A stretch of 22,730 nucleotides of DNA, from positions 1-22,730 of IMG/VR virus record IMGVR_UViG_3300046543_000008; one strand, given 5' to 3'. The stretch comes from a virus. The notes beneath the pieces are model-generated. The model saw only the letters and a program-made list of their open reading frames with translations. It ran no database searches and was not told the origin of the DNA. Each line of letters starts with the position of its first letter. Within the stretch, counting starts at the first letter, position 1. Position numbers and translations under genes: made by a program. Positions 2,901 through 22,690 of this stretch are shown here, piece by piece.

Positions 2901-4835
2901 TTAGAATGCGTGGTCCGCTGCGGTCAGATCGAAATAGCCGCGGCGGTCAAACGTCGAGCCGTTGTAAACCCAAAGTTCGATCTTGTTTTGCGCAGCGTTG
3001 AATTGGAAAAACGAGAAGCTGCCGAAGCCGAGCCGTTGATCGCGCATGTGAATCGCGCACTGGTTCGCAGCCGCGCCGTAAGCCGCACTGGCTTGCGGTC
3101 CGACGTCAAGCCCGATGCCACCCGGCGTGATGCCGGTGCCGTCGGTCGACGCGCCGTACTTAAAATTGATCAGCGTCGCCGGTTGCGCCTGGATATCGAT
3201 CCCGATGTGATCGATCGAGAACGTCTTCATGTAGATGCCGGTGCGCCACATATTCGCGACGCTGCCGCTCGCGATGCCGCTCGCGAACGTGTTTTTATTC
3301 GGCCCGAAAGAGATATTCCAGTCGCCGCAAGTGAACGGCGCCGTCGTCGGAAACGCGTCGTTGTATACGTAATCGCTACCGGAATAATTGAACGTGTCGT
3401 GCTCGAATGAGGTCGCGGTAACGTTGTGGTTATGCGCCCATGCTTCCGAATACAAACCCCAAATAGCACCCGCGGTGATACCGTGCGCCGAGCCCGACAA
3501 CGCGACCGACTGCGCGGCGCCCGACGTCGAATGGTCTTCGAGATAGTTGTAATTCGTGGTGAGCCAGCCCGTACCGCCGGCCGCGCGCTTGAGCGCGTTG
3601 TACTTCAGGAAGATCAGGTGCGCGGCATCGTCGCCGACAACCGACTGATCGACGCGCTGCGTGTACGACGTCGCCGTCACGCCGTCGGTCGTCGGGTTCG
3701 CGTCGGTGCCGTGCCAGATGCTATGCCGCTTGCCGACGTTCGGCGTCGAGTTGTACGCCATCGTCGCGGCGTGGTGCGCGAGCTTGCCCGGCCCTGTGAG
3801 CGACGCGCCGCTCGCGAAGCGCCAGTTGACGGTGCCGGCGCCCGCGGCGACGTTCGTCGCGAGATAGTACGAACCCGCCGGCACGTCGACGTCGAGCACC
3901 TGGCCCGCGGCCGTCGAGTTACAGATCGCTTGGAACGCGATCGTGTCATTCGACACGCCGTCACCGATGGCGTTAAACGGTGCGTCTTTCGCGTTCGCGA
4001 TGAAATTGATTCGGTTGAGCAGCTTCGTGCCGGCGGCGACCGATGCGTCGAACACGCTGCCGGTCGACGGCAGATAGATCGAAAGCGCCGAGCCGCCGCG
4101 CACGTACACTCGTTGGACGCCGACAGGGATCGCGGCGGTGAACGTGAGCACGGCGCCGGTGAGCGACTGAAAGTTTTCCGGCCCTTGGTACGCTGCGTCG
4201 AAAAATACTTCGATGTTGGCGAGCGAACCCGGCGCGCGCGACAAGACGAGCGAGTTAGACACGCCCGACGTAAAGTCGATTCCGCTGGTGAAGGTGTCGG
4301 TGCGCATGTCACCGGCGCCGACACTTGCCGTGATCGGCAGGGTTTCGAGATTACCGAGCGCATCGAAGCCAAGGATCGTATTCGCGCGTGCGGCGCTCGA
4401 CGGTAGCTCTGCGGTCGATGTGTCAGACGCGCCGACGACGATCGCCCGGCTGACGACTTCGGCGACCTGCTGGATCTGGATCGTCGCGCGATCCACCATG
4501 TCTTCGATGATCTCGGGGTAAAACCCCCCGCTATTCGTGATGTCCGTCTGCTGTTCGATCGGCAGATCGCCGAGCACGACCAGCTTGTAAGGCGACGGTA
4601 ATGCCGAGCCGGTGATCGGGTAGGTGATCGTACCGCCCGGCGCGTCGGTCTGATTCGGGTTCAGTGTGACCGAGTAATCAGAGTCGAGCGTGAGCGTCGT
4701 CGAAGTACCGTTCGAATCGATCAGTTGCAGCTCAACGTCGGTCTTCGCGAAGATCTTGAAGCCGAACGGGAAAACAGTGGTTACCCCGTTACCGATGAAA
4801 GGGCCGGCTTTTCGTGTTGTGCTGGAAATGGTCAA
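2901..4835 (-). CDS. Tail spike/fibre protein with T7-like virion-anchor N-terminus
   Basis: 644-residue host-binding protein. From the TTG start the N-terminus reads MTISSTTRKAGPF, then GNGVTTVFPFGFKIF, typical of the anchor domain (about 1-135) that attaches podovirus fibres to the tail. A linker LPSSAARANTILGFDALGNLE follows near 145-165, then a small beta domain (about 180-250, ending PVGVQRVYVRGG) often seen in these fibres, then FNAIGDGVSNDTIAFQAIC near 287-305, the usual entry into a beta-helix spike domain. No catalytic residues can be assigned. An upstream TTG at 4862 keeps the frame open, but the TTG at 4835 has AGGAG at a spacing of 8 bases and restores the family's usual N-terminus. 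The gene follows the giant ejection protein after a 63-base gap. Confidence 0.85.
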   Translation of the reverse strand: MTISSTTRKAGPFIGNGVTTVFPFGFKIFAKTDVELQLIDSNGTSTTLTLDSDYSVTLNPNQTDAPGGTITYPITGSALPSPYKLVVLGDLPIEQQTDITNSGGFYPEIIEDMVDRATIQIQQVAEVVSRAIVVGASDTSTAELPSSAARANTILGFDALGNLETLPITASVGAGDMRTDTFTSGIDFTSGVSNSLVLSRAPGSLANIEVFFDAAYQGPENFQSLTGAVLTFTAAIPVGVQRVYVRGGSALSIYLPSTGSVFDASVAAGTKLLNRINFIANAKDAPFNAIGDGVSNDTIAFQAICNSTAAGQVLDVDVPAGSYYLATNVAAGAGTVNWRFASGASLTGPGKLAHHAATMAYNSTPNVGKRHSIWHGTDANPTTDGVTATSYTQRVDQSVVGDDAAHLIFLKYNALKRAAGGTGWLTTNYNYLEDHSTSGAAQSVALSGSAHGITAGAIWGLYSEAWAHNHNVTATSFEHDTFNYSGSDYVYNDAFPTTAPFTCGDWNISFGPNKNTFASGIASGSVANMWRTGIYMKTFSIDHIGIDIQAQPATLINFKYGASTDGTGITPGGIGLDVGPQASAAYGAAANQCAIHMRDQRLGFGSFSFFQFNAAQNKIELWVYNGSTFDRRGYFDLTAADHAF

Positions 4836-4836
4836 A

Positions 4837-4860
4837 GCGGGCACTCCTATGAATGCCCGC
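4837..4860 (-). promoter_or_regulatory. Hairpin containing the ribosome binding site of the tail spike gene
   Basis: In the minus-strand transcript GCGGGCATTC, loop ATAG, GAGTGCCCGC can form a 10-pair stem (nine Watson-Crick pairs, one G-U). The AGGAG ribosome site (4848-4844) lies half in the loop and half in the 3' arm, and the TTG start follows at 4835. Folding would partly hide the site. There is no U tract after the stem, so it is a poor terminator. A role in lowering or timing spike translation is inference. Confidence 0.55.
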
Positions 4861-4883
4861 AATTTTCCTTTTCAATCAGTCTA

Positions 4884-4900
4884 GTAAGTGAACGCAGCCT
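4884..4900. repeat. 17-base repeat copy A, at the end of the giant ejection gene
   Basis: GTAAGTGAACGCAGCCT on the + strand matches 20478-20494 at 16 of 17 positions. This copy overlaps the stop codon of the 2157-residue gene and extends into the gap before the tail spike gene. Unlike the other copy it has no complementary arm, so it does not form a terminator here. Confidence 0.5.
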
Positions 4901-7900
4901 AGTGCTTCGGCCCCCGCCCGAGCGCCAGCCCTTGCGCGAATTCCAGTGCGTTCGCCGGGTGCTGCTTGCCCGACGCAACGTCGGCGGCGTACTGCGCAGT
5001 GGCACCGGCCTGACCGAGCCCGGGGATGTGCAACCCCATGCCGGCGGCGTTCGCGATGTCTTTGATCGGCGCGTTCGCGTGTTGCCCCGTCGCGATGCGC
5101 GCGACATCCTTACCTGCCGTCACCATCGTATTGAGCCACGACTCTACACCGACCTGACCCGCGTGGCTGTAGCCTTCGACCATCGCCGCGGCGTCGCGCA
5201 CGAAGGGCACCATGCCGGCGACTTCGACACCGATCGACTTCGCGATCCAGTGCGCCCACCCGTCTTTATCGTTCGGCGGGCCGTCGGTCAGATACCCGGC
5301 CCAAAGCGCCGGCACGATCAACGCCATCATGCCGCGCGCGAGCGTCTGCGGGTTACTGATACCCGCCGTCTTCAGCTTGTCGACGATATCGGCGGTCTGC
5401 CCGTAGGTGTTGTTCATGAACCCGTACAGCGTCGTGAACATCTTGACCGCTTCCGACGAGTTGTTGATCACCATCGAGCGCGCCGACGCGATGTTGCTGC
5501 CGTGAGCTTCGCGCACGACTTTGCTCGCGTAGGCAACCGCTTGTTCTTCCGTCATCGGCTTGCCGGTGCCGCCCATGTTTTTCGGGATGCCTTCGGTAAT
5601 CGCGCGGTCGTATGCCGCCCACGCCGTCGGTACGGCCGTCATCATGTCGGACCATGCCACGGCGGCGTGGCCGAAGCGCTCGCCCTTCGCGATCTTGCCT
5701 TCCGGCTCAAACAGGTTTGCCGACATCGCTTTGAAGTCGCGGTCTTGCTGCAGCAAGCGCGCGCGGATCTCAGGAAACTTTTCCTGCGCGCCCTTGATCT
5801 CGGCGGCGTAGTTCGTCCCCATCGCGGCGAAGCGCGACAGCAGATACTTTTCACCGCCGCCGGTGAAGTATCCGCCGGTCTTGATTGCGGCCGAGCCGCC
5901 GTGCTTGAGCACCGTCGAGATCCGGAACGCGATGCCGTTGATCACCATGCCGGTGCGCGTGTACTGCAGGATCTTGCCGAGCGCGCCGATCTCGCGGTCC
6001 TGGTTGTCGGCGTTGGCGGTCTTGCCGAGCCATTCCTGCAGCGAGCGGTAAGCTTCCGGGCCGTAGGTCTTTTTGAACTCGCGCGCAAAGTCGCCGTTGG
6101 TGATGATCTTGTGCACGTCGATCAGCGCTTCGCGATACGCGAGATCGTGGATTGTCTCGTGCATCGTGCGCGGGATCGTATGGAAGTCGAGATCCACGAC
6201 GTCGTTATATCCGTGGTTTCGCGCGTTGAGCGACCCGTTCGTCGTGGTGTCCGGGCGATAGTAACTCTTACCGAATAGCCCTTCGCCCGGGTCGATCGCA
6301 CGGCCGGCGGCTTCTTTCTCGCCGCGGCGCGAGCGCAGCGGGTCGTACTTGATCGCGGCATACCCGCCGCGCATCTCGCCAAATTGCGTCTTGAAGGCGC
6401 GCGGCTCGATGCGTTCCGGCGACGTGTTGCCGAGTCGCTGGTTCATCGCGACCATATCCGGCCAGTGCTTATCGTACTGGTCCCACACGGATTGCACCGC
6501 TTTCCAGTCCTTCTCGGTCATGTTCTGGTGCAGGAACGACCAGACGTCTTGTGGGTTCCACTTCCACCCTTGCGTCATCTTGTCGAAGTTCGACTCATTG
6601 CCGACGTGCAGCGCGATGCCGAGCATCCGGCCGCGCGTCATGCGTAGCGGTTCGCCTGGTCGGTTCACGTCCATCAGCTTCGTGTTCGTCACACCATCGC
6701 GCAAGCTGTCTTGCCACTTGCGACCTAGGTGATCGGCCATCTTTTGGAAGTCGTCAGACATACCCTTGAGCATGTCGACTTCGTGATAGTTGGCATTGAA
6801 CACCGGTTCGTAGATCGCTTCGCCGAACGGCCCGAGCAGCTCGTGCATGTCGTACTGATTGCGCTTGTATTCCTGTGGCTTCAGTTGTGCGCGAAGCGCG
6901 CGCAGCTGCGACGACAGGTGATCAAGCGCGATCTTGAACGGGTTGTCGCTGCGGTCGCTCGGCTTGTCGAAAATCTCGGCGTCGGTGAACTTCTGCCCGC
7001 GTTCCTGCATTTTTGGGATCAGCTTCTCGTTCACGTATTGCGCGATGTCTTGGCGCTCGCCGTTGATCATTGCGGTCTTGCGGTCGCGGCCGATCTTTTC
7101 CAGCGACTTCACGGCGTCGGTCAGTCCGCGGAATGCTTCGAGCGGCATGTCGCCGTACGGCTGGCGATAGGCCGGGTTCATCATCTCGGGCGTGACGTTC
7201 GGCGCCATGCCGAGCGCGGTCTGCGACTCGACCCACTTTTCGAGGTTGATCTGCTGGCGTGTCGGCGTGTCGACGGGATTCTTGCGCAGGTCGAAGCGAC
7301 CGAGCATGTCGTCGATCTGATCGCGAATGTCGACGTCGAGCTTGCCGCGCACGCTGTCTTTGTTGAACTTCTTCAGGTAGTCGAGCGCCTTGACGACTTC
7401 GGCCGCCGCGTTGCGCGCCGTCTTCTCAAGCTGGTTATTCAGCAGTTGATTGCGCTTCTGCGTCGCGGCTTCGGTCAGGTCACCTTTGACGCGCGCAGCG
7501 TCGGCGGCCTTGCCGGCGCGCGCTTCGGCGGCGGCGTACTTCGCGGCGTTGATGTCGCGCACGCGTTGCTTCGCGATCGACATCTCGGCGACTTGCTTCG
7601 CCGCGTCGACGAGCGGGCGCACCGGGCCCGTCGCCTTGCTGAGCGCCTTGAGTTCGGTCGCGACAAAGCGCGTGCGCACTTCGTTGTGGATCGCCTGATT
7701 CGCGGCGGCGTTCATCGCCTGTGGTGACGTGACATCGCCGTACTTTTCGAGCATGCGCTGATCGGTGAGCGCTTCGACAACCGACTTGACCGACTCGGCG
7801 TTGGCAATCGCCTTCGTCATGTCGGCCGCATTGTTGAAGCCGAAGCGGTCGGCGACGATATCCGCCGGCACCGGATCGGCCTTGTTCGCCTGCTCGATCA

Positions 7901-10900
7901 TGAAACGCTGCGCGGCGTACACCGGCTCTTTCGCGACTTCGGCCGCAACCTGCTCGCGCATATCGCGACGCTTCGCGGCGACGTCTTTCTGCACTTCGCG
8001 CAGCGCGCGGTTCTTCGAGATCTCGGTGAAGCGCATGTCGCGCAGCGTGCGCGCGGTCAATTCGTCCGATGCTTCGAGCGTCGCCTCGTTGCCGAGCGCG
8101 TGGTACGCCTGGAACTCGTCCGGCGTCATGTTCGCTTCTTCGGGCGTCTTGAACATCGGACCCATAGCGCGCTCGGCTTCGGCCGTACGGATCGCGTCGT
8201 TCGTGGCGAGCAGCCGGTCGAACACGCCGCGCACTTCCGGCGACAGTTGCACGTGCAGGTTCTGCAGCGACTTATAGACGTTAACCATCCACGCGCGCAC
8301 GCGCTGGAATACGCCTTGCAGTTCCGGCGTCGGCGCCTTGCCTTCGAACAGATACGACTCGAAGCCGCGCGCGAACTGCTCGTGCATCGGGCGCTTTTCT
8401 TCGAGCGACATGTTGCGCCATGCTTCCGGCGTCGTGCCGAGCCATTGCATCGTCGTGGCAAAGTCTTTCGCGACTTGCGGGTCTACCGACGGCTGCTCAG
8501 TCGTGGTTTGAGGCGCGGGTTCGTCCGGCGTGGCGCGCGTCGTCGCGGCTTGTGTGCGCAATTCAGCTTCTTTCGCGCGCAACTCTTTCGCCTGCTCCGG
8601 GTCCCCGAATTCGCTTTCCTGATCGGCTGCGGCGCGCGCGTAGTGATCGGCGCGGCGTTCCATCCCCTTCGCCTTTTCCGCATTCGTTACCGGCTTGCGG
8701 TTCGCCATCTCGGCAGCGTAACGGCGGTCGCGCTCTGCATGAAGCGCTTCTGTGGCGACGCCCGGTGATGTCGTACCGTCCGGATTCGGGAAATCCTGTA
8801 CAAGCCCAGCATCTTTCAACTTCTGCCAGTCGTCAGGATGAACCATGCCTTCGCGCAATTCTCTGCCCGGTCCGAGATCGCCGACCTGCTGGATCGTCGT
8901 ATCGGAAAGCTTCGCGAGAGGGTTGTCGCTGTGCGCTTCGACACCTTTCGCCATGTGCGAAAGCATCTCAAGGTGGAAGTGCCCGAGTTCGTGAACGAAC
9001 GTGCTTAAATCTGCGTCTTTGTTGAGCGTGATCGTGCTCGGCGACTTGCTGATGTCGTCGGCGAATGACAGCTTGCCGCGTGCGGCTTGGTTTACTTCGT
9101 TCGGCGCTTGCGGCGGGCGATACATCGACTCGCTGACTTCGTAGTCTTTGTTCTTTCCCTTGTTCTCGACGAACCCGAATTGCTTATAGAAGTCTTTCAG
9201 CCGCTTAACCGACGATGCGCCGAAGTCGGTCGACGGCGTAAGTTCAACGCGCTTGCCTTGACTGTCAGCGTACGCCGTAACGTCGCGCATGAATTGCGAG
9301 CCGGCACCCTGCCCGCGCGAGTCTTCCGGCACGACGACTTTCGACACCTTGACGGCGTTCGCGTTTTCGCTGACTGCGTGCGAAATGCCTTGCTCGCCCC
9401 ACTTCGCTTTTAGGTCGTCGAGCGACGGCTTCGCCGCCTGATCAACCGAGTTCGCACCCGGCGCTTCGTCGGCCGCAATCCGCAGCGGGTAGCGCTCGAA
9501 CATCGATTCGGGTGACAGCCCCGCGCGGGCGCCGGCTGCGGTATAGCTGTCGCGCACGAGCGCGGCGTACACCTTGTTCACATCCGGCCGGAAGCGGTTT
9601 GCCTGCGTCAACTGGTCGAGCACGTTGTCGTGCACGGCTTGCGCCGACTTCGCGATCGCGTCTTCGTTCTGCTTGTCCGTGACGACGCCTTCGGCGGCTT
9701 GCTTGAACGTGTCGACGTGCGACTGATAGAACTCCTGCGCCTGCAACTGCGTCATGCCGTCCGGGTCGGTCTTCAGGTGCGGCATGATCGCGTCTTGCAT
9801 CGGTCCGCCCGCGATGTGCGTCGCGAAGTCTTCGACCGGGATCTGCACATCGCCGCCCGTCGACAGCGCTGTCGGCAACTGCTCGGCGACGCGCGGCATC
9901 GTGGCTTCGACGTCGCTGATCTTGAGCCCCGACTGCTGCAGCGCGTTCGCGAGCGCGGCGCCGTCGACATAGACGTTTTGCACCGGGCCGTTCTCGTTCG
10001 CTTGCGCTACGAAATCCTTGAACGCTTGCGGGTCGCGCGTGCGCAGCTTCGAGTTAGCTGCCGACGTCGCGAGATCCGAAAGCGTCGCCGCGTCAGCCGC
10101 GGCCGTATCGGCCCGCGCCGCGTCGCGCATCCACCCGCCGGCCGCGCGGCCCGCGCCGTGCAGCGAAAATACGGTGTTTAACCCGTAGTCGAAAACCTTC
10201 TGCGCGGTCGAGCGGTCGTCGAACGGGTTCGTGCCGCCGATCGCGTCCATCATCGCATTCACGCCGACGGCGCGCGCGAGCGTCTGCACGATCGTGTTAT
10301 CGGGCAGGATGCGCCCGGCTGCGCCGAAGACGCCACCCATCTCGGCGCCGTGTGCGCCGGCCATGCCTAGCGTAGTCAGCGCGGCTTCAGGGCTATTCTG
10401 ATTCAGTGCGTCGCCGGTCGCGGTGAGCGCGGTCGCGAGCCCGAGCGTTGACGCCTGCGCGCCGACATCCTTCGCGGTCGCCTTCAGGAACGACTCACCG
10501 GCCGTGTGCTCTAGCACCTTGGCGCCGCCCTTCTCGACGGCCATCTCGGCGAGCTTGAGCGGTGCACCGATCATGAAGCCGGCGAGGTTACCGGCGCCGC
10601 TCGCGACACCGCCCGCGGTCGTCTGCGCGGGCCCGTTGACGTCGGGTGCAAGCCCGGCCGTGAACGAGTTTTCGAAGCCTTGCGCGAACTGCGTCGGGAT
10701 CTCCGACATACCGCCGACGGCATCGCGCATCGAGCCAACCGGGATATTGTTCTGCTTCGCGTAGTTTTGGATGAACGCCTGCGCAGCGCCCGCGCCTTGC
10801 GCGTTGCCTTCAGCCGGGCCGAGCCCGAGCAGGTTGCGCCCCCAATTCACGATCCGTTCGCGGTACGGCAGCGGCGTGTTGTCCGGCACAAGAAAGCCCG

Positions 10901-11372
10901 TCGTGCCTGGCGCGAGCGGTACGGTGTTGCCCGCCGGTCCCAGGTTCGCGGTCGACTGCTCGACCGACTGCAAGCCGGGAATGTCGTCGTGCGCGATCTT
11001 CGCGTTGTTCAGATCCTGATAGAACGCGGCCGTCGTCGGGTATTGCTTCGCGAGCCCTTTCCAGTCGGTGCTTTCCACGGCCGCGCGCTGCTTGACCTGA
11101 TCCGGGAATGCGCGAACGCTTTCGATCGGCGTGCCGGTCTGCTTCGCGAGCTGCGACAGCGACGCTTCGAGATCCGGATTCGCGCCGATCGAAAGCGCGA
11201 TATTGCTCTGCGCGGTCTGTGCGGTGTTCTGCAGATATGCCGCGGCCGGGCTAACCGTAGGCGCGGCGGGTGCTGCCGGCGCCGCCGCGTCGGGCGTGAA
11301 CGGGTTCGGCGTGGTTTGCTGCGGTTGAACGGCGCCTTGTGCGGTCGTGCCCGGTACGGTCAAGTCAGCCAT
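4899..11372 (-). CDS. Giant polyvalent ejection protein with GNAT and zinc-protease domains
   Basis: 2157-residue protein, probably packaged in the head and ejected with DNA. Residues 1-60 are Ala/Pro/Gln rich. Residues about 650-752 resemble a GNAT acetyltransferase: KVSKVVVPEDSRGQGAG (R686-G691 fits the acetyl-CoA loop) and FYKQFGFV at 728-735. A zincin motif HELGH lies at 794-798 in LSTFVHELGHFHLEM. HEQFARGFESYLFEGKAP (997-1014) then matches the segment that normally follows this zincin in phage polyvalent proteins and probably supplies the third zinc ligand (a Glu); about 150 extra residues separate the two parts. Residues 1100-1360 are helical and charged; the C-terminus (1800-2157) has hydrophobic stretches. 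Such multi-domain proteins are thought to counter host defences or modify host targets early in infection. The start overlaps the preceding stop as TAATG. Substrates are unknown. Confidence 0.85.
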   Translation of the reverse strand: MADLTVPGTTAQGAVQPQQTTPNPFTPDAAAPAAPAAPTVSPAAAYLQNTAQTAQSNIALSIGANPDLEASLSQLAKQTGTPIESVRAFPDQVKQRAAVESTDWKGLAKQYPTTAAFYQDLNNAKIAHDDIPGLQSVEQSTANLGPAGNTVPLAPGTTGFLVPDNTPLPYRERIVNWGRNLLGLGPAEGNAQGAGAAQAFIQNYAKQNNIPVGSMRDAVGGMSEIPTQFAQGFENSFTAGLAPDVNGPAQTTAGGVASGAGNLAGFMIGAPLKLAEMAVEKGGAKVLEHTAGESFLKATAKDVGAQASTLGLATALTATGDALNQNSPEAALTTLGMAGAHGAEMGGVFGAAGRILPDNTIVQTLARAVGVNAMMDAIGGTNPFDDRSTAQKVFDYGLNTVFSLHGAGRAAGGWMRDAARADTAAADAATLSDLATSAANSKLRTRDPQAFKDFVAQANENGPVQNVYVDGAALANALQQSGLKISDVEATMPRVAEQLPTALSTGGDVQIPVEDFATHIAGGPMQDAIMPHLKTDPDGMTQLQAQEFYQSHVDTFKQAAEGVVTDKQNEDAIAKSAQAVHDNVLDQLTQANRFRPDVNKVYAALVRDSYTAAGARAGLSPESMFERYPLRIAADEAPGANSVDQAAKPSLDDLKAKWGEQGISHAVSENANAVKVSKVVVPEDSRGQGAGSQFMRDVTAYADSQGKRVELTPSTDFGASSVKRLKDFYKQFGFVENKGKNKDYEVSESMYRPPQAPNEVNQAARGKLSFADDISKSPSTITLNKDADLSTFVHELGHFHLEMLSHMAKGVEAHSDNPLAKLSDTTIQQVGDLGPGRELREGMVHPDDWQKLKDAGLVQDFPNPDGTTSPGVATEALHAERDRRYAAEMANRKPVTNAEKAKGMERRADHYARAAADQESEFGDPEQAKELRAKEAELRTQAATTRATPDEPAPQTTTEQPSVDPQVAKDFATTMQWLGTTPEAWRNMSLEEKRPMHEQFARGFESYLFEGKAPTPELQGVFQRVRAWMVNVYKSLQNLHVQLSPEVRGVFDRLLATNDAIRTAEAERAMGPMFKTPEEANMTPDEFQAYHALGNEATLEASDELTARTLRDMRFTEISKNRALREVQKDVAAKRRDMREQVAAEVAKEPVYAAQRFMIEQANKADPVPADIVADRFGFNNAADMTKAIANAESVKSVVEALTDQRMLEKYGDVTSPQAMNAAANQAIHNEVRTRFVATELKALSKATGPVRPLVDAAKQVAEMSIAKQRVRDINAAKYAAAEARAGKAADAARVKGDLTEAATQKRNQLLNNQLEKTARNAAAEVVKALDYLKKFNKDSVRGKLDVDIRDQIDDMLGRFDLRKNPVDTPTRQQINLEKWVESQTALGMAPNVTPEMMNPAYRQPYGDMPLEAFRGLTDAVKSLEKIGRDRKTAMINGERQDIAQYVNEKLIPKMQERGQKFTDAEIFDKPSDRSDNPFKIALDHLSSQLRALRAQLKPQEYKRNQYDMHELLGPFGEAIYEPVFNANYHEVDMLKGMSDDFQKMADHLGRKWQDSLRDGVTNTKLMDVNRPGEPLRMTRGRMLGIALHVGNESNFDKMTQGWKWNPQDVWSFLHQNMTEKDWKAVQSVWDQYDKHWPDMVAMNQRLGNTSPERIEPRAFKTQFGEMRGGYAAIKYDPLRSRRGEKEAAGRAIDPGEGLFGKSYYRPDTTTNGSLNARNHGYNDVVDLDFHTIPRTMHETIHDLAYREALIDVHKIITNGDFAREFKKTYGPEAYRSLQEWLGKTANADNQDREIGALGKILQYTRTGMVINGIAFRISTVLKHGGSAAIKTGGYFTGGGEKYLLSRFAAMGTNYAAEIKGAQEKFPEIRARLLQQDRDFKAMSANLFEPEGKIAKGERFGHAAVAWSDMMTAVPTAWAAYDRAITEGIPKNMGGTGKPMTEEQAVAYASKVVREAHGSNIASARSMVINNSSEAVKMFTTLYGFMNNTYGQTADIVDKLKTAGISNPQTLARGMMALIVPALWAGYLTDGPPNDKDGWAHWIAKSIGVEVAGMVPFVRDAAAMVEGYSHAGQVGVESWLNTMVTAGKDVARIATGQHANAPIKDIANAAGMGLHIPGLGQAGATAQYAADVASGKQHPANALEFAQGLALGRGPKH

Positions 11373-18419: not shown

Positions 18420-19442
18420 TTAGACGACTCGCGTTTCGGTGGACAGCAGCGCGTCGACGATCCGGATCGGAATACCCAGGAACGACGTCGTGATCTGCCC
18501 TTGTGCTTCCGACACGCTCAACGCGTTCTGCGACTTGTTCAGTGCTTGAACGCGCAGCATCTCGCCGACCGTGCGGTTGACGTAGAACACCGGACGACCC
18601 ATGCCCTGACGCGGAATGCGCGCGGTCATGCGGATCATCGTCTGGATCAGATCGACTGGCGACGTGCCGTTGACGCCAGGGAACGTCGGCGCCGTTGCGA
18701 TCGTCGTCAGATCCGCCACGTTGATGTTCGCGGCGCGCACGACATAGCGCCAGTCTTTCAGCGCGATACCACACTTCCATTGCCAGCGATCAGCCACGGC
18801 GCGGAAACGGTTGTTGTTCGAATCGAACGCGTCGATCGTGCCGAGGTCTTCGTGGAACACGCCGGCCTTCGAGCCCTTCGGGAAGATGCCGGTGACGGTC
18901 TGATCGCCCCAGTTCATCAGCCAGATCGAGCAGTTGTTCGAACCGGTGCCGCCGCAGTCGATGATGTTGTTCGCGTTGCCTGCGCCCGAGATCGTGCCGT
19001 AGCGCGTCGCGAGACCGGTGAAGCGTTCCGGATTGACCGACACGTCGCCGTAGAACAAGGTCGACGCCATCGTTTCGTTCATCGCTTCAAGGAACGAGCT
19101 GGCTTCGGACAGGCGGAACGCGGCCGTGTTGCCATTCAGGTTCGCGACGTCGACGTCGATTTCGTTGCGTGCTTCGAGCATGCCCGTTGCTTCGTCGACC
19201 TGCGCGCGGGTCGACTTGCTCGGCGGCACACCGCCGTAGAGCTTGCGCCACACGACAGTCGGCAGACCCGTACGCACGGTCGTGCGGTGACCGGTCGGGA
19301 GGTTGCCTTCGGCCCACACGGCGTCGAGCAGGATCTCGTTCGTCTGGTTCAGCAGTTCGATCACGTCGGCGGTCGCGCCGGACGGGTCGAGCGATTTCGC
19401 TACGTCGAGCAGCGTCGGATTCTTTGTACCAAGTACGGCCAT
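18420..19442 (-). CDS. Major capsid protein (Bbp17-like, HK97-type fold expected)
   Basis: 340-residue coat protein. Strongly recognisable start: MAVLGTKNPTLLDVAK, then EGNLPTGHRTTVRTGLP near 64-80, PSKSTRAQVDEATGMLEA near 93-110, LNGNTAAFRLSEA near 120-132 and GIFPKGSKAGVFHEDLG near 205-221. These blocks belong to a podovirus/siphovirus capsid family that includes the BPP-1 coat protein. There is no N-terminal scaffold-like extension, consistent with a separate scaffold gene just before it. An AGGGG site is 8 bases before the ATG; 13 bases separate it from the scaffold gene. Confidence 0.93.
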   Translation of the reverse strand: MAVLGTKNPTLLDVAKSLDPSGATADVIELLNQTNEILLDAVWAEGNLPTGHRTTVRTGLPTVVWRKLYGGVPPSKSTRAQVDEATGMLEARNEIDVDVANLNGNTAAFRLSEASSFLEAMNETMASTLFYGDVSVNPERFTGLATRYGTISGAGNANNIIDCGGTGSNNCSIWLMNWGDQTVTGIFPKGSKAGVFHEDLGTIDAFDSNNNRFRAVADRWQWKCGIALKDWRYVVRAANINVADLTTIATAPTFPGVNGTSPVDLIQTMIRMTARIPRQGMGRPVFYVNRTVGEMLRVQALNKSQNALSVSEAQGQITTSFLGIPIRIVDALLSTETRVV

Positions 19443-19455
19443 GATTTACGCCCCT

Positions 19456-20118
19456 TTATTTCATGTTCGGATAGAGGCGGTTCTCAAGCGGCGTCGTGGT
19501 GCGGTCTACTTGCCCCGCGTTGCCGCTGATAATGCGCCCGTCTTCACTGATTGCCTTGCCGGCCTTAACCATGAACCGGACGATTTCCGGATGATTGCCA
19601 AGGCCGCTTTGATTCAGCAGCGTTTTCAACTCAGGCGAACCGAAGTTGTCGAGCGCTTTCTTTGCGACGGCCAGGTTCTCGGGCAGCTTGTCGCCGCCGA
19701 TTTCCTTGTCGGCCGTGGTCTGTTCAGCCCACTGCGCCGTCATCGCTTTCTGCTGCTCGGCGACTTGAGCCGCAAACCCTTGCGCCTGTTTGGCGCCGAG
19801 ATCCGCGAGCTTCTGCGCTTCGTCCTGCGTCAAGCCCTTCTCTTTGGCGAACGCCTTCAACTCGTCAAGCGCTTCGCCTTTCAGGTCAACGCCTTCGGGC
19901 AGCTTGAATTCGTATTCGACGGGTGCAGCTTCGGTCGGCTTCTCGCCTTCCTTCGGTGCTTCGCCATCGGCGGGCTTCGCCGTTGCTTCCGTTGCCGGCG
20001 CGGTGCTGGCTTCGGTTGCGGTTGTTGCTGCTTGGCTTTCGGGTGCGGTGACGGGCGCTGCCGTCTCGCTGGCCGTAGTTGCCGGTGCCGCTTGGCTTTC
20101 AGTGATCGGGTCAGCCAT
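19456..20118 (-). CDS. Capsid assembly scaffolding protein
   Basis: 220-residue acidic, helical protein. Residues 1-70 are low complexity (Ala, Thr, Glu, Pro); residues about 75-175 contain FKLPEGVDLKGEALDEL and LAKEKGLTQDEAQKLADLG-type segments followed by a long helix (QVAEQQKAMTAQWAEQT) and EIGGDKLPENLAVAKKALDNFG, the usual pattern of scaffolding proteins located just before the major capsid gene. No protease motif is visible. It overlaps the previous gene by 8 bases (20111-20118) with AAGGA 8 bases before the ATG, and is followed closely by the capsid gene. Confidence 0.85.
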   Translation of the reverse strand: MADPITESQAAPATTASETAAPVTAPESQAATTATEASTAPATEATAKPADGEAPKEGEKPTEAAPVEYEFKLPEGVDLKGEALDELKAFAKEKGLTQDEAQKLADLGAKQAQGFAAQVAEQQKAMTAQWAEQTTADKEIGGDKLPENLAVAKKALDNFGSPELKTLLNQSGLGNHPEIVRFMVKAGKAISEDGRIISGNAGQVDRTTTPLENRLYPNMK

Positions 20119-20446
20119 TTGGTTTTTCCTTTACCTGTGCTTCGTTCGCCATCTGCGCGTAGAGCCCGGCGCCGCCTTCGATCGAATGGATCTGAGCGAC
20201 GAGCCGTAGCGCAATGCTGCGTTTACCTTCGTTGAAAATCGACCAGTTGGTATTGCCGTCGAAAGACTGCTGGTACAGTCTCGCGTCGCCGAGCAGGCGC
20301 CACATGAAACGACGGCCGCGCTTTCCGCTCATGAGCCAGCGCACGTCATCCAACTCGATCGCCAATTCGAACCGTGATTGCTCGCGCGCGTTGGCGCGTT
20401 GCTCGTCGATTGCGGTGAGATCAGTCGGATTAAAGTCGTCGCTCAT
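20111..20446 (-). CDS. Bbp19-like head protein
   Basis: 111-residue protein with the core ELDDVRWLMSGKRGRRFMWRLL at about 31-52, which marks the family of BPP-1 Bbp19, small proteins found between portal and scaffold genes. The C-terminal half continues NEGKRSIALRLVAQIHSIEGGAGLYAQMANEA and is helical. Role unknown; the conserved place suggests head assembly. No clear ribosome site precedes the ATG: the 12 bases after the upstream terminator stem read ATTCCGCTCACC. It overlaps the scaffold gene by 8 bases, suggesting coupled translation. Confidence 0.88.
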   Translation of the reverse strand: MSDDFNPTDLTAIDEQRANAREQSRFELAIELDDVRWLMSGKRGRRFMWRLLGDARLYQQSFDGNTNWSIFNEGKRSIALRLVAQIHSIEGGAGLYAQMANEAQVKEKPNG

Positions 20447-20503: not shown

Positions 20504-22690
20504 TTACGTCGTCGAGATACGCATCCAGTAACCGCCGGTTGCGTTGTACTGCAAGATGCCGCATTGATCTTGCGACAACACCAGCGTCGATGCGCCGGCT
20601 CGACCGGTGTAGTTCACCGTGAAGCTGACGGCAGCGGATGCCGAATTGACGAAGATCCGGATCTGGCCGTCTTCCGGTGCGGCTTCGACGGTGATCGTGC
20701 CGGCGCCCGCGCCGGTCCACTCGGTCGTGGATGGTGCCGACGGGTTCGCGAGCGTCGTCCCGCTCGTCGACGTGCGCGCGATCTTCAGGTTGATGCCGTA
20801 GAAGTAGCCGCGCAGATAGCGCGTCGTCACGCTGCCAAGGTTGTAATTCTGGTCCGTGACTGGTGACAAGCTGCCCGCATTGAACGCGAGCAGGTCGATC
20901 CCGTTGATCGTGTAGCGCGTACCGGGCGGCGAGCCGGTGCCGATCTTGTCGGTGCCGAAGTGGAAGTTGCCGCCCGCGTACCACATCCCGCCGAACGAAC
21001 CATTAGCGAGCCCGGCGTCGATCGTCTGCCAGATCCGCAGCGTCTGGTTATTCGTCCCCCGGCGCACCGACAGCACATCCGGTGAATCCATGAAGATGTT
21101 GCAGGCGCTCGGTATGTCGGTCGCGGCCGGGATCACGCGCGCGGCGCCCGGCCATCCGGCCGTGCCTGGCGTGGTGTTCGATGCGTGGTACGACTTCATT
21201 GCCGTGTACGCGGCTTTCTTCGTCGAACCGTCGTACTTGATCAAACCGTAGTTCGACGTGTTGACGCCACCGAGATCCGAGCCGGTGCCCGAGTCTGCCG
21301 TATCGGCGAACAGCGTATAGAGCAACACCGCTTGAATGTTGTACGTCACGCGGTTGCTAAACCACACGGCATATTGCGACGTCAGGTAGCTCGCCTGATT
21401 CGCTTCCGTGTCGATCGTGCCCCACTCCGAGACGATCGTCGGCAAGCCATTGCACCGGCTTTGCAGCAAGGCGAGCACGTTCGGGTTCGGCGTGCCGGAC
21501 GGCGGTGCATCCGGACAATACGATCCGGTGCCCCCGGTGCGACCCTGCCGGTGATTCGACGGGCCGGCGAAGACGACGTTGTTCATCGTCTTGTACCAGT
21601 GCAGGCACACGAAATCGAACGGGATCGGCGTCTGCGTGATCGCGCCGGTCGTGTCCATGCCCTTGATGAGCATTTCCTGCACGACATACGAATACGGGTT
21701 GCCGGTCGCCATGCCGCACTTGGCGGTCGGAATGATCGACTTAATACCCGCGATCATGCCGCCGACCAGCCCGCGCAGCATCTCGATCGCAGCCGGGATA
21801 AAGTCGGTGCGCACCGAGCCGTCAGGCCCGAACCCGTCGATCGGATTGACCGCGCTCGCATTGCCCTGCTTGTCGATCCGGCAGATAAAGTCGAGCTCGT
21901 TCGTACATTCCCAGATGATCTTCGTCGGGTCGCTGATGCCCGCGACTGCCGCGTTCGCCATCGCGATACCGAGCGTCTGGCCGGCGCTGTAGTTCGCCGC
22001 ATAGGTCGTATTCACGACGTTGTAGCTGGCCGGCGTGATGACGATCAGTGGCGTACAGCCGTTCGCGATCCACGAATTGATGATCGCCAGGTTGTTCGAA
22101 CTAGACAGGTTCGCCGCGGTCGTCATGTCCGTGCGCATGATCTGCAGACCGAGATCCGAGATCAGCGACGCGTAGCTCGATGGCGTCATCGCCTGGTACG
22201 GCGCCCATCCGCGATTCAAGTGCGTATTGAGCCCGAAGAAACCCGACGGCGTGGGCGCGGTCGACGCCTGCTTCGGCGCCCAAAAGTTACCGGTGTTCGG
22301 ATCGTAGGCGGCTTCGCCGATGTTGCCGAGCGTCGCGGCCGGCGTGCCGGTCGTGATGTTCGGGCCGCGAAAGCTGTTCGTTGCGCCGTCGATGCCGTCA
22401 CGCCCGCGCAGCGAGCCGACTGACTGTGCGCCGTACGTGCCGCCGGCCTTTTGATAGTACTGATACGACCCGTTCGGATCGGTGTCGAGATACAGCGTGC
22501 CGTTCGGCTTGCCGTCGCCGTCGTTCGGCGCTCCGACCCCGCTTGTCCAGCCGACGCCTGGCGAGCCCGCACCGCCCGCGCCGGTGTACGCGGTCAATAC
22601 TGACGCCGGCACTTGAACGAGCTGGCCGTCTTGAATCAGCGTCAGCTTGTCATTGTCGGACAGCGGACGGGTGGACTGTTGCGGGTGCAT
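20504..22690 (-). CDS. Tail-fibre-like protein with clan GH-A glycosidase domain (putative depolymerase)
   Basis: 728-residue protein. Residues 1-110 are fibre-like (QQSTRPLSDNDKLTLIQDGQ, Gly-rich linker, a GRDGIDG collagen-like turn at 96-102). Residues about 148-505 look like a (beta/alpha)8 glycosidase of clan GH-A: FFGLNTHLNRG (strand 1), LQIMRTD (2), PLIVIT (3), IIWECTNELD with putative acid/base Glu265 (4), CGMATGNP (5), FDFVCLHWYKT (6), LPTIVSEWGTID with putative nucleophile Glu422 (7) and IQAVLLYTLFAD (8). Residues 515-728 are beta-rich with a fibre-like repeat NLGSVTTRYLRGYFYGINL. The likely job is recognition and cleavage of a host surface polysaccharide; GH39 or GH5 are the nearest families from the motifs. 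AGAGG lies 6 bases before the ATG, and a terminator follows. Confidence 0.85.
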   Translation of the reverse strand: MHPQQSTRPLSDNDKLTLIQDGQLVQVPASVLTAYTGAGGAGSPGVGWTSGVGAPNDGDGKPNGTLYLDTDPNGSYQYYQKAGGTYGAQSVGSLRGRDGIDGATNSFRGPNITTGTPAATLGNIGEAAYDPNTGNFWAPKQASTAPTPSGFFGLNTHLNRGWAPYQAMTPSSYASLISDLGLQIMRTDMTTAANLSSSNNLAIINSWIANGCTPLIVITPASYNVVNTTYAANYSAGQTLGIAMANAAVAGISDPTKIIWECTNELDFICRIDKQGNASAVNPIDGFGPDGSVRTDFIPAAIEMLRGLVGGMIAGIKSIIPTAKCGMATGNPYSYVVQEMLIKGMDTTGAITQTPIPFDFVCLHWYKTMNNVVFAGPSNHRQGRTGGTGSYCPDAPPSGTPNPNVLALLQSRCNGLPTIVSEWGTIDTEANQASYLTSQYAVWFSNRVTYNIQAVLLYTLFADTADSGTGSDLGGVNTSNYGLIKYDGSTKKAAYTAMKSYHASNTTPGTAGWPGAARVIPAATDIPSACNIFMDSPDVLSVRRGTNNQTLRIWQTIDAGLANGSFGGMWYAGGNFHFGTDKIGTGSPPGTRYTINGIDLLAFNAGSLSPVTDQNYNLGSVTTRYLRGYFYGINLKIARTSTSGTTLANPSAPSTTEWTGAGAGTITVEAAPEDGQIRIFVNSASAAVSFTVNYTGRAGASTLVLSQDQCGILQYNATGGYWMRISTT

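Follow-up and report, generated by a model that had tools for sequence, protein, structure and literature searches.

Does a TIM-barrel glycosidase form part of a phage fibre, and would that fibre belong to the tail? Both questions are raised by a 728-residue open reading frame on the minus strand of the window, the 22,730 bp IMG/VR record that was analysed here. A preliminary description, made from the letters alone, had called its product a clan GH-A-type glycosidase built into a podovirus tail fibre. The coordinates of the relevant features are collected in Table 1.

Table 1. Location of the fibre gene, its predicted domains and active-site residues, and related genes of the window. Residues are numbered along the fibre protein.
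Feature	Position	Strand	Remarks
Putative accessory fibre gene	20504–22690	minus	728 amino acids, stop codon included in the interval; AGAGG ribosome-binding-like site upstream
Putative amino-terminal anchor and collagen-like, glycine-rich stalk	22244–22690	minus	residues 1–149; GAGGAGSPG, GRDGIDG
Predicted glycosidase domain (allele A), a (beta/alpha)8 barrel of the clan GH-A type	21167–22243	minus	residues 150–508
Predicted carboxy-terminal beta-rich fibre domain	20507–21166	minus	residues 509–728; low model confidence
Arg186	22133–22135	minus	strand 2; invariant, as clan GH-A expects
Asn264-Glu265	21896–21901	minus	follows strand 4; Glu265 is the expected catalytic acid/base; both residues invariant in the family
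His364-Trp365-Tyr366	21593–21601	minus	final residues of strand 6; His364 and Tyr366 invariant
Glu422 (SEWG)	21425–21427	minus	in strand 7; expected nucleophile; invariant
Bbp19-like gene	20111–20446	minus	directly downstream of the fibre gene
Major capsid protein GP7 (PF20911)	18420–19442	minus	marks the epsilon15/BPP-1 group
Other receptor-binding protein	2901–4862	minus	usual tail-fibre slot; tail-protein amino-terminus, possible beta-helix start

Host phage and location of the fibre gene

The phage of the window is a podovirus of the BPP-1/epsilon15 group, as its GP7 major capsid protein (1.8e-135) indicates; a Bbp19-like protein and the tail proteins phrog_376 and phrog_394 are further markers of this kind. 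The ribosome-binding-like site upstream of the fibre reading frame can be seen in a longer sister contig, L002. The fibre gene is inserted beside the portal, between homologues of bbp20 (38% identity) and bbp19 (40% identity). In BPP-1 these two genes adjoin, separated by 42 bp, so the Bbp19-like gene forms one border of the insertion, and a fibre gene of this kind is likewise missing at that position from phages phiV10, Tyrion, AF and BcepC6B.

The slot of bbp9 in BPP-1, which follows the large internal virion protein, is occupied in the window by the gene at 2901–4862. A tail-fibre gene of BPP-1 type is expected in this slot, after the internal virion proteins, and the fibre gene lies outside it. 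Of the "podovirus tail fibre" first proposed, podovirus and fibre-like protein can therefore be retained; "tail" is not supported, given the portal-side position and the occupied tail-fibre slot. The protein encoded by 2901–4862 matches a tailspike PHROG at its amino-terminus and has Pfam matches below the cut-off (E 0.04–0.05), from which the beta-helix start ascribed to it earlier is possible. Elsewhere in the window, positions 4899–11372 encode a 2157-residue internal virion protein (phrog_9880), of which residues 650–760, approximately, match phrog_10691 and, weakly, an acetyltransferase family; a third fibre-like gene (33–974, phrog_11393 tail fibre) is located downstream of the lysis genes.

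Predicted structure of the barrel

The barrel was modelled with AlphaFold2 from a 36-row alignment of relatives; a model from the single sequence had a pLDDT of 32 and was discarded. Residues 150–508 are confidently predicted to form an eight-stranded barrel of the clan GH-A type, with most ten-residue blocks at 82 to 98 and low-confidence loops near residues 284–286, 377–398 and 467–478. The strands comprise residues 152–156, 184–189, 213–218, 259–262, 324–326, 361–366, 418–424 and 452–458, with helices in between. The model thus agrees with the eight-stranded TIM barrel read earlier from positions 21176–22249, which correspond to residues 148–505. Among the Foldseek matches listed for the barrel are GH1 (1.5e-10), GH39 (1.6e-10), PslG (2.5e-10) and GH5 enzymes; GH79 is absent from the matches listed, which has no bearing on membership. 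GH1 structures can be superposed with VIA-align over 292 residues (3.2 Å, Z about 26), and klotho proteins are also found among the structural matches.

Active site

The recomputed codons of Asn264 (21899–21901), Glu265 (21896–21898) and Glu422 (21425–21427) place both glutamates where they had first been located. In the AlphaFold2 model, Glu265 directly follows strand 4, Glu422 is inside strand 7 and the His-Trp-Tyr motif ends strand 6, an arrangement that had been anticipated from the motifs. Across the 292 well-filled barrel columns of the 36-row alignment, no acidic residues other than Glu265 and Glu422 are invariant, which is far beyond chance. Arg186, Asn264, His364, Tyr366 and Tyr458 are likewise invariant, the last of these taking the place of the strand-8 tryptophan usual for clan GH-A, which was not seen. 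Arg186, Asn264, Glu265, His364, Tyr366 and Glu422 are identical in all 80 of the bacterial relatives compared (the best 80 of 232 loci), and the catalytic residues are kept in both phage alleles of the barrel described below. In the family profile, the glutamate of the [ST]EWG motif is aligned to the region of the GH1 nucleophile (ITENG). Model and alignment together contain the clan GH-A features of a (beta/alpha)8 fold, a strand-4 Asn-Glu pair and a strand-7 glutamate at the expected nucleophile position; with the structural matches to GH1, GH39, PslG and GH5, they sustain the proposal of a clan GH-A-type enzyme.

Stalk and carboxy-terminal domain

The first 36 residues or so of the fibre vary from phage to phage, and no known anchor family was matched at the amino-terminus. 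The length of the stalk varies too, the fibre reaching 918 residues in contigs L118 and L119 (2907–5663 in each), where the stalk contains several collagen-like repeats (NGDYAYD...MYGPK...GTNGTNG). The carboxy-terminal domain is 73–82% identical to its versions in other phages and is found only together with the barrel. Both stalk and carboxy-terminal parts were modelled poorly by AlphaFold2; a likeness of the carboxy-terminal domain to the StcE beta-sandwich (E 0.004) was below the cut-off and was taken as weak. Neither the stalk nor the carboxy-terminal domain, searched alone, has a match among named phages, and the full-length protein has none in 50,697 phage genomes, nor at close range in GTDB genomes.

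Occurrence among phages and exchange of the barrel

The fibre, or a fragment of it, is carried by 16 soil IMG/VR contigs, which the neighbours of the gene sort into four architectures. In the first, of BPP-1 type (the window and L002), the fibre gene is located between the bbp20 and bbp19 homologues. The second (L006 and L120–L122) has the order terminase (phrog_3717), fibre, portal (phrog_12082). In the third, which is P22-like (L114/L018, L115 and L116), the fibre gene precedes the head-closure gene phrog_578, while in the fourth (L118 and L119) the major head protein phrog_1328 is upstream of it. In all four, the gene is in the portal, head and neck block and never in the tail-fibre slot.

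Two further observations concern related proteins. In contig L019 (6994–9023), a fibre reading frame is accompanied, before the head-closure gene phrog_578, by a separate reading frame for a related 443-residue glycosidase; this protein shares its amino-terminal domain with a Caballeronia enzyme (38% identity) and is probably a second, independent capture. Five viral contigs (L021–L025, for example L021:3231–4943) encode a 571-residue protein that combines a beta-rich amino-terminal part with a distant member of the barrel family.

The phage barrels occur as two alleles that are 42–45% identical, while the carboxy-terminal domains carrying them are 74–78% identical. When L006 (allele A) and L120 (allele B) are compared, the upstream sequences are 95.5% identical across 3.1 kb and the sequences from the carboxy-terminal domain onwards 92% identical across 852 bp, while the barrels are mostly 40–63% identical; the two contigs thus differ by a swap of the barrel cassette. 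The barrels of the window and L006 are 85% identical at the DNA level, with a different terminase and neighbourhood. Between these two copies (94% identical) dN/dS is 0.06, so the barrel is under purifying selection. Since the fibre is common to unrelated phages, which exchange its enzyme part, the enzyme probably strips the slime coat of the bacterium in a type-specific way.

Bacterial relatives of the barrel

A tblastn search against plasmids found relatives of the barrel in Caballeronia, Paraburkholderia and Mycetohabitans, several of them annotated as glycosyl hydrolases. The Burkholderiaceae proteins are 25–34% identical to the phage barrel, and the bacterial relatives start with lipoprotein- or TAT-like signals. 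A profile scan of GTDB confirmed 232 loci, the best 80 of which are all from Burkholderiaceae genera. The barrel is present in 66 of 299 Burkholderiaceae genomes (E below 1e-20), many with five to seven matches, and in 6 of 398 genomes of a phylum sample, of which three recur from the family set and the remaining three match far more weakly. The barrel is a member of a glycosidase family that occurs mainly in Burkholderiaceae. The highest copy number, nine secreted-glycosidase paralogues each, was observed in two Caballeronia genomes (L031 and L033). Polysaccharide genes are near two of the five annotated bacterial loci.

In a tree whose drawn root is arbitrary, the phage barrels form a single clade (support 100/99) on a long branch amid the bacterial ones, which fits an old capture from a Burkholderiaceae-like host, as far as an unrooted tree can indicate. 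No prophage with the fibre was found in the 299 Burkholderiaceae genomes, where two weak matches concern the carboxy-terminal domain only. The relatives of the barrel and the GC content of the window (62.8%) point to a host in the Burkholderiaceae, and the same relatives suggest an exopolysaccharide as the substrate.

Proposed function

Taken together, the protein is probably an accessory virion fibre that bears a host-derived, retaining GH-A depolymerase of exopolysaccharide or capsule, is mobile as a module and has its barrel exchanged. The collagen-like stalk, the conserved carboxy-terminal domain and the gene neighbourhood point to a fibre located on the virion, and this architecture and neighbourhood fit a predicted virion-associated polysaccharide depolymerase. 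The fibre, presumably a trimer, would be anchored to the particle by its amino-terminal stalk and capped by the conserved carboxy-terminal domain; the barrel held between them would hydrolyse the capsule or exopolysaccharide of a host in the Burkholderiaceae by a retaining mechanism, in which Glu265 would serve as acid/base and Glu422 as nucleophile. The barrel would descend from the many-copy secreted glycosidases of Burkholderiaceae, and the fibre gene would travel as a module among unlike phages, with recombination exchanging the barrel, as is expected if the barrel must match the polysaccharide of the host. More tentatively, the fibre may be attached to the head or neck, swapping captured host glycosidases as a host-range or slime module independent of the tailspike. 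Such a location is possible because the fibre gene adjoins portal, head-closure or major-head genes in other phages, gene order being no proof of location.

The same enzyme might instead act outside the virion, being made in the infected cell and freed at lysis to clear slime for the phage progeny or disperse biofilm. In bacteria the relatives are secreted enzymes that stand alone, the glycosidase of L019 is encoded by a reading frame of its own next to that of the fibre, and the fibre amino-terminus resembles no known anchor; but the protein has a collagen-like stalk, its carboxy-terminal domain is conserved together with the barrel and the gene is amid structural genes in every phage seen, which makes this reading rather unlikely. 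It is less probable still that the barrel of the fibre only recognises polysaccharide and leaves it uncut, in the manner of the klotho-type pseudo-glycosidases found among its structural matches, since both glutamates, Arg186, Asn264, His364 and Tyr366 are invariant in bacteria and in both phage alleles and the low dN/dS argues against it as well. That a bacterial gene was joined to a phage contig by an assembly error is scarcely credible and was rejected: the closest cellular relatives of the barrel are bacterial, but they are at most 34% identical (best 80 of 232 GTDB loci), with no close copy among them, and separate contigs, representing four architectures, have the same gene flanked by phage structural genes.

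If the accessory depolymerase fibre is the correct reading, the presence of its gene within the head and neck genes of four types of phage makes one ask whether virions may also bear depolymerases at sites other than the tail. The barrel family has numerous members in bacteria and phages and a conserved active site; with its two natural phage alleles and a swap that nature has already performed, it opens to experiment the way in which phages convert enzymes of their hosts into enzymes of the virion. It also provides enzymes for studying the polysaccharides of Caballeronia and Paraburkholderia.

Comparison with known systems

The phage barrel proteins match no PHROG or NCBIfam family. In protein P0001, PF00150 (GH5) is matched below the cut-off (E 0.03), the fibre has no GH39 or GH79 Pfam match, and PslG and GH39 appear only through their fold or through weak profile matches. 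PF11790 (Glyco_hydro_cc) matched none of the phage proteins and was marginal for the bacterial relatives, two of six exceeding 21 bits. The suggestion that the protein may define a different class is too strong for the fold, but the phage members of the barrel family have no assignment in Pfam, PHROGs or NCBIfam.

The closest system is the Burkholderiaceae "glycosyl hydrolase" family (for example Caballeronia sp. M1242 WP_241270078.1 and Mycetohabitans WP_237574357.1), with which the whole barrel aligns, including all catalytic positions. Its members are stand-alone and secreted, some with an amino-terminal accessory domain, and lack the collagen stalk and the fibre carboxy-terminus. PslG of Pseudomonas aeruginosa (GH39-like), which acts on an exopolysaccharide, and GH39, GH1 and GH5 enzymes have the same fold, strand-4 Asn-Glu and strand-7 Glu as the fibre, but are only 9–16% identical to its barrel, and the sequence match is confined to the second half of the barrel. 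The closest viral folds in BFVD are a 414-residue protein of Ralstonia phage RSB3 (U3TJ01, E 7e-20, 20% identity) and a GH5-like protein of Pseudomonas phage POR1 (1e-12).

Most known phage depolymerases are beta-helices, on which prediction tools have been trained. Beta-helix tailspike depolymerases have the same probable role, virion-borne cleavage of polysaccharide with swappable specificity domains, but differ from the fibre in fold, catalytic machinery and their place in the tailspike slot. For TIM-barrel tailspikes, the literature search returned mainly DepoScope, in which TIM barrels account for 10 of 984 phage proteins with a polysaccharide-degrading fold and were omitted from training, the examples being too few (PMC11326577); the fibre enzyme is thus uncommon, as first supposed. 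In the RcGTA preprint, a TIM barrel without known function is mentioned as part of a baseplate. TIM-barrel depolymerases are therefore rare but already known, and what is unusual here is the mobility of the fibre across architectures and its possible location at the head.
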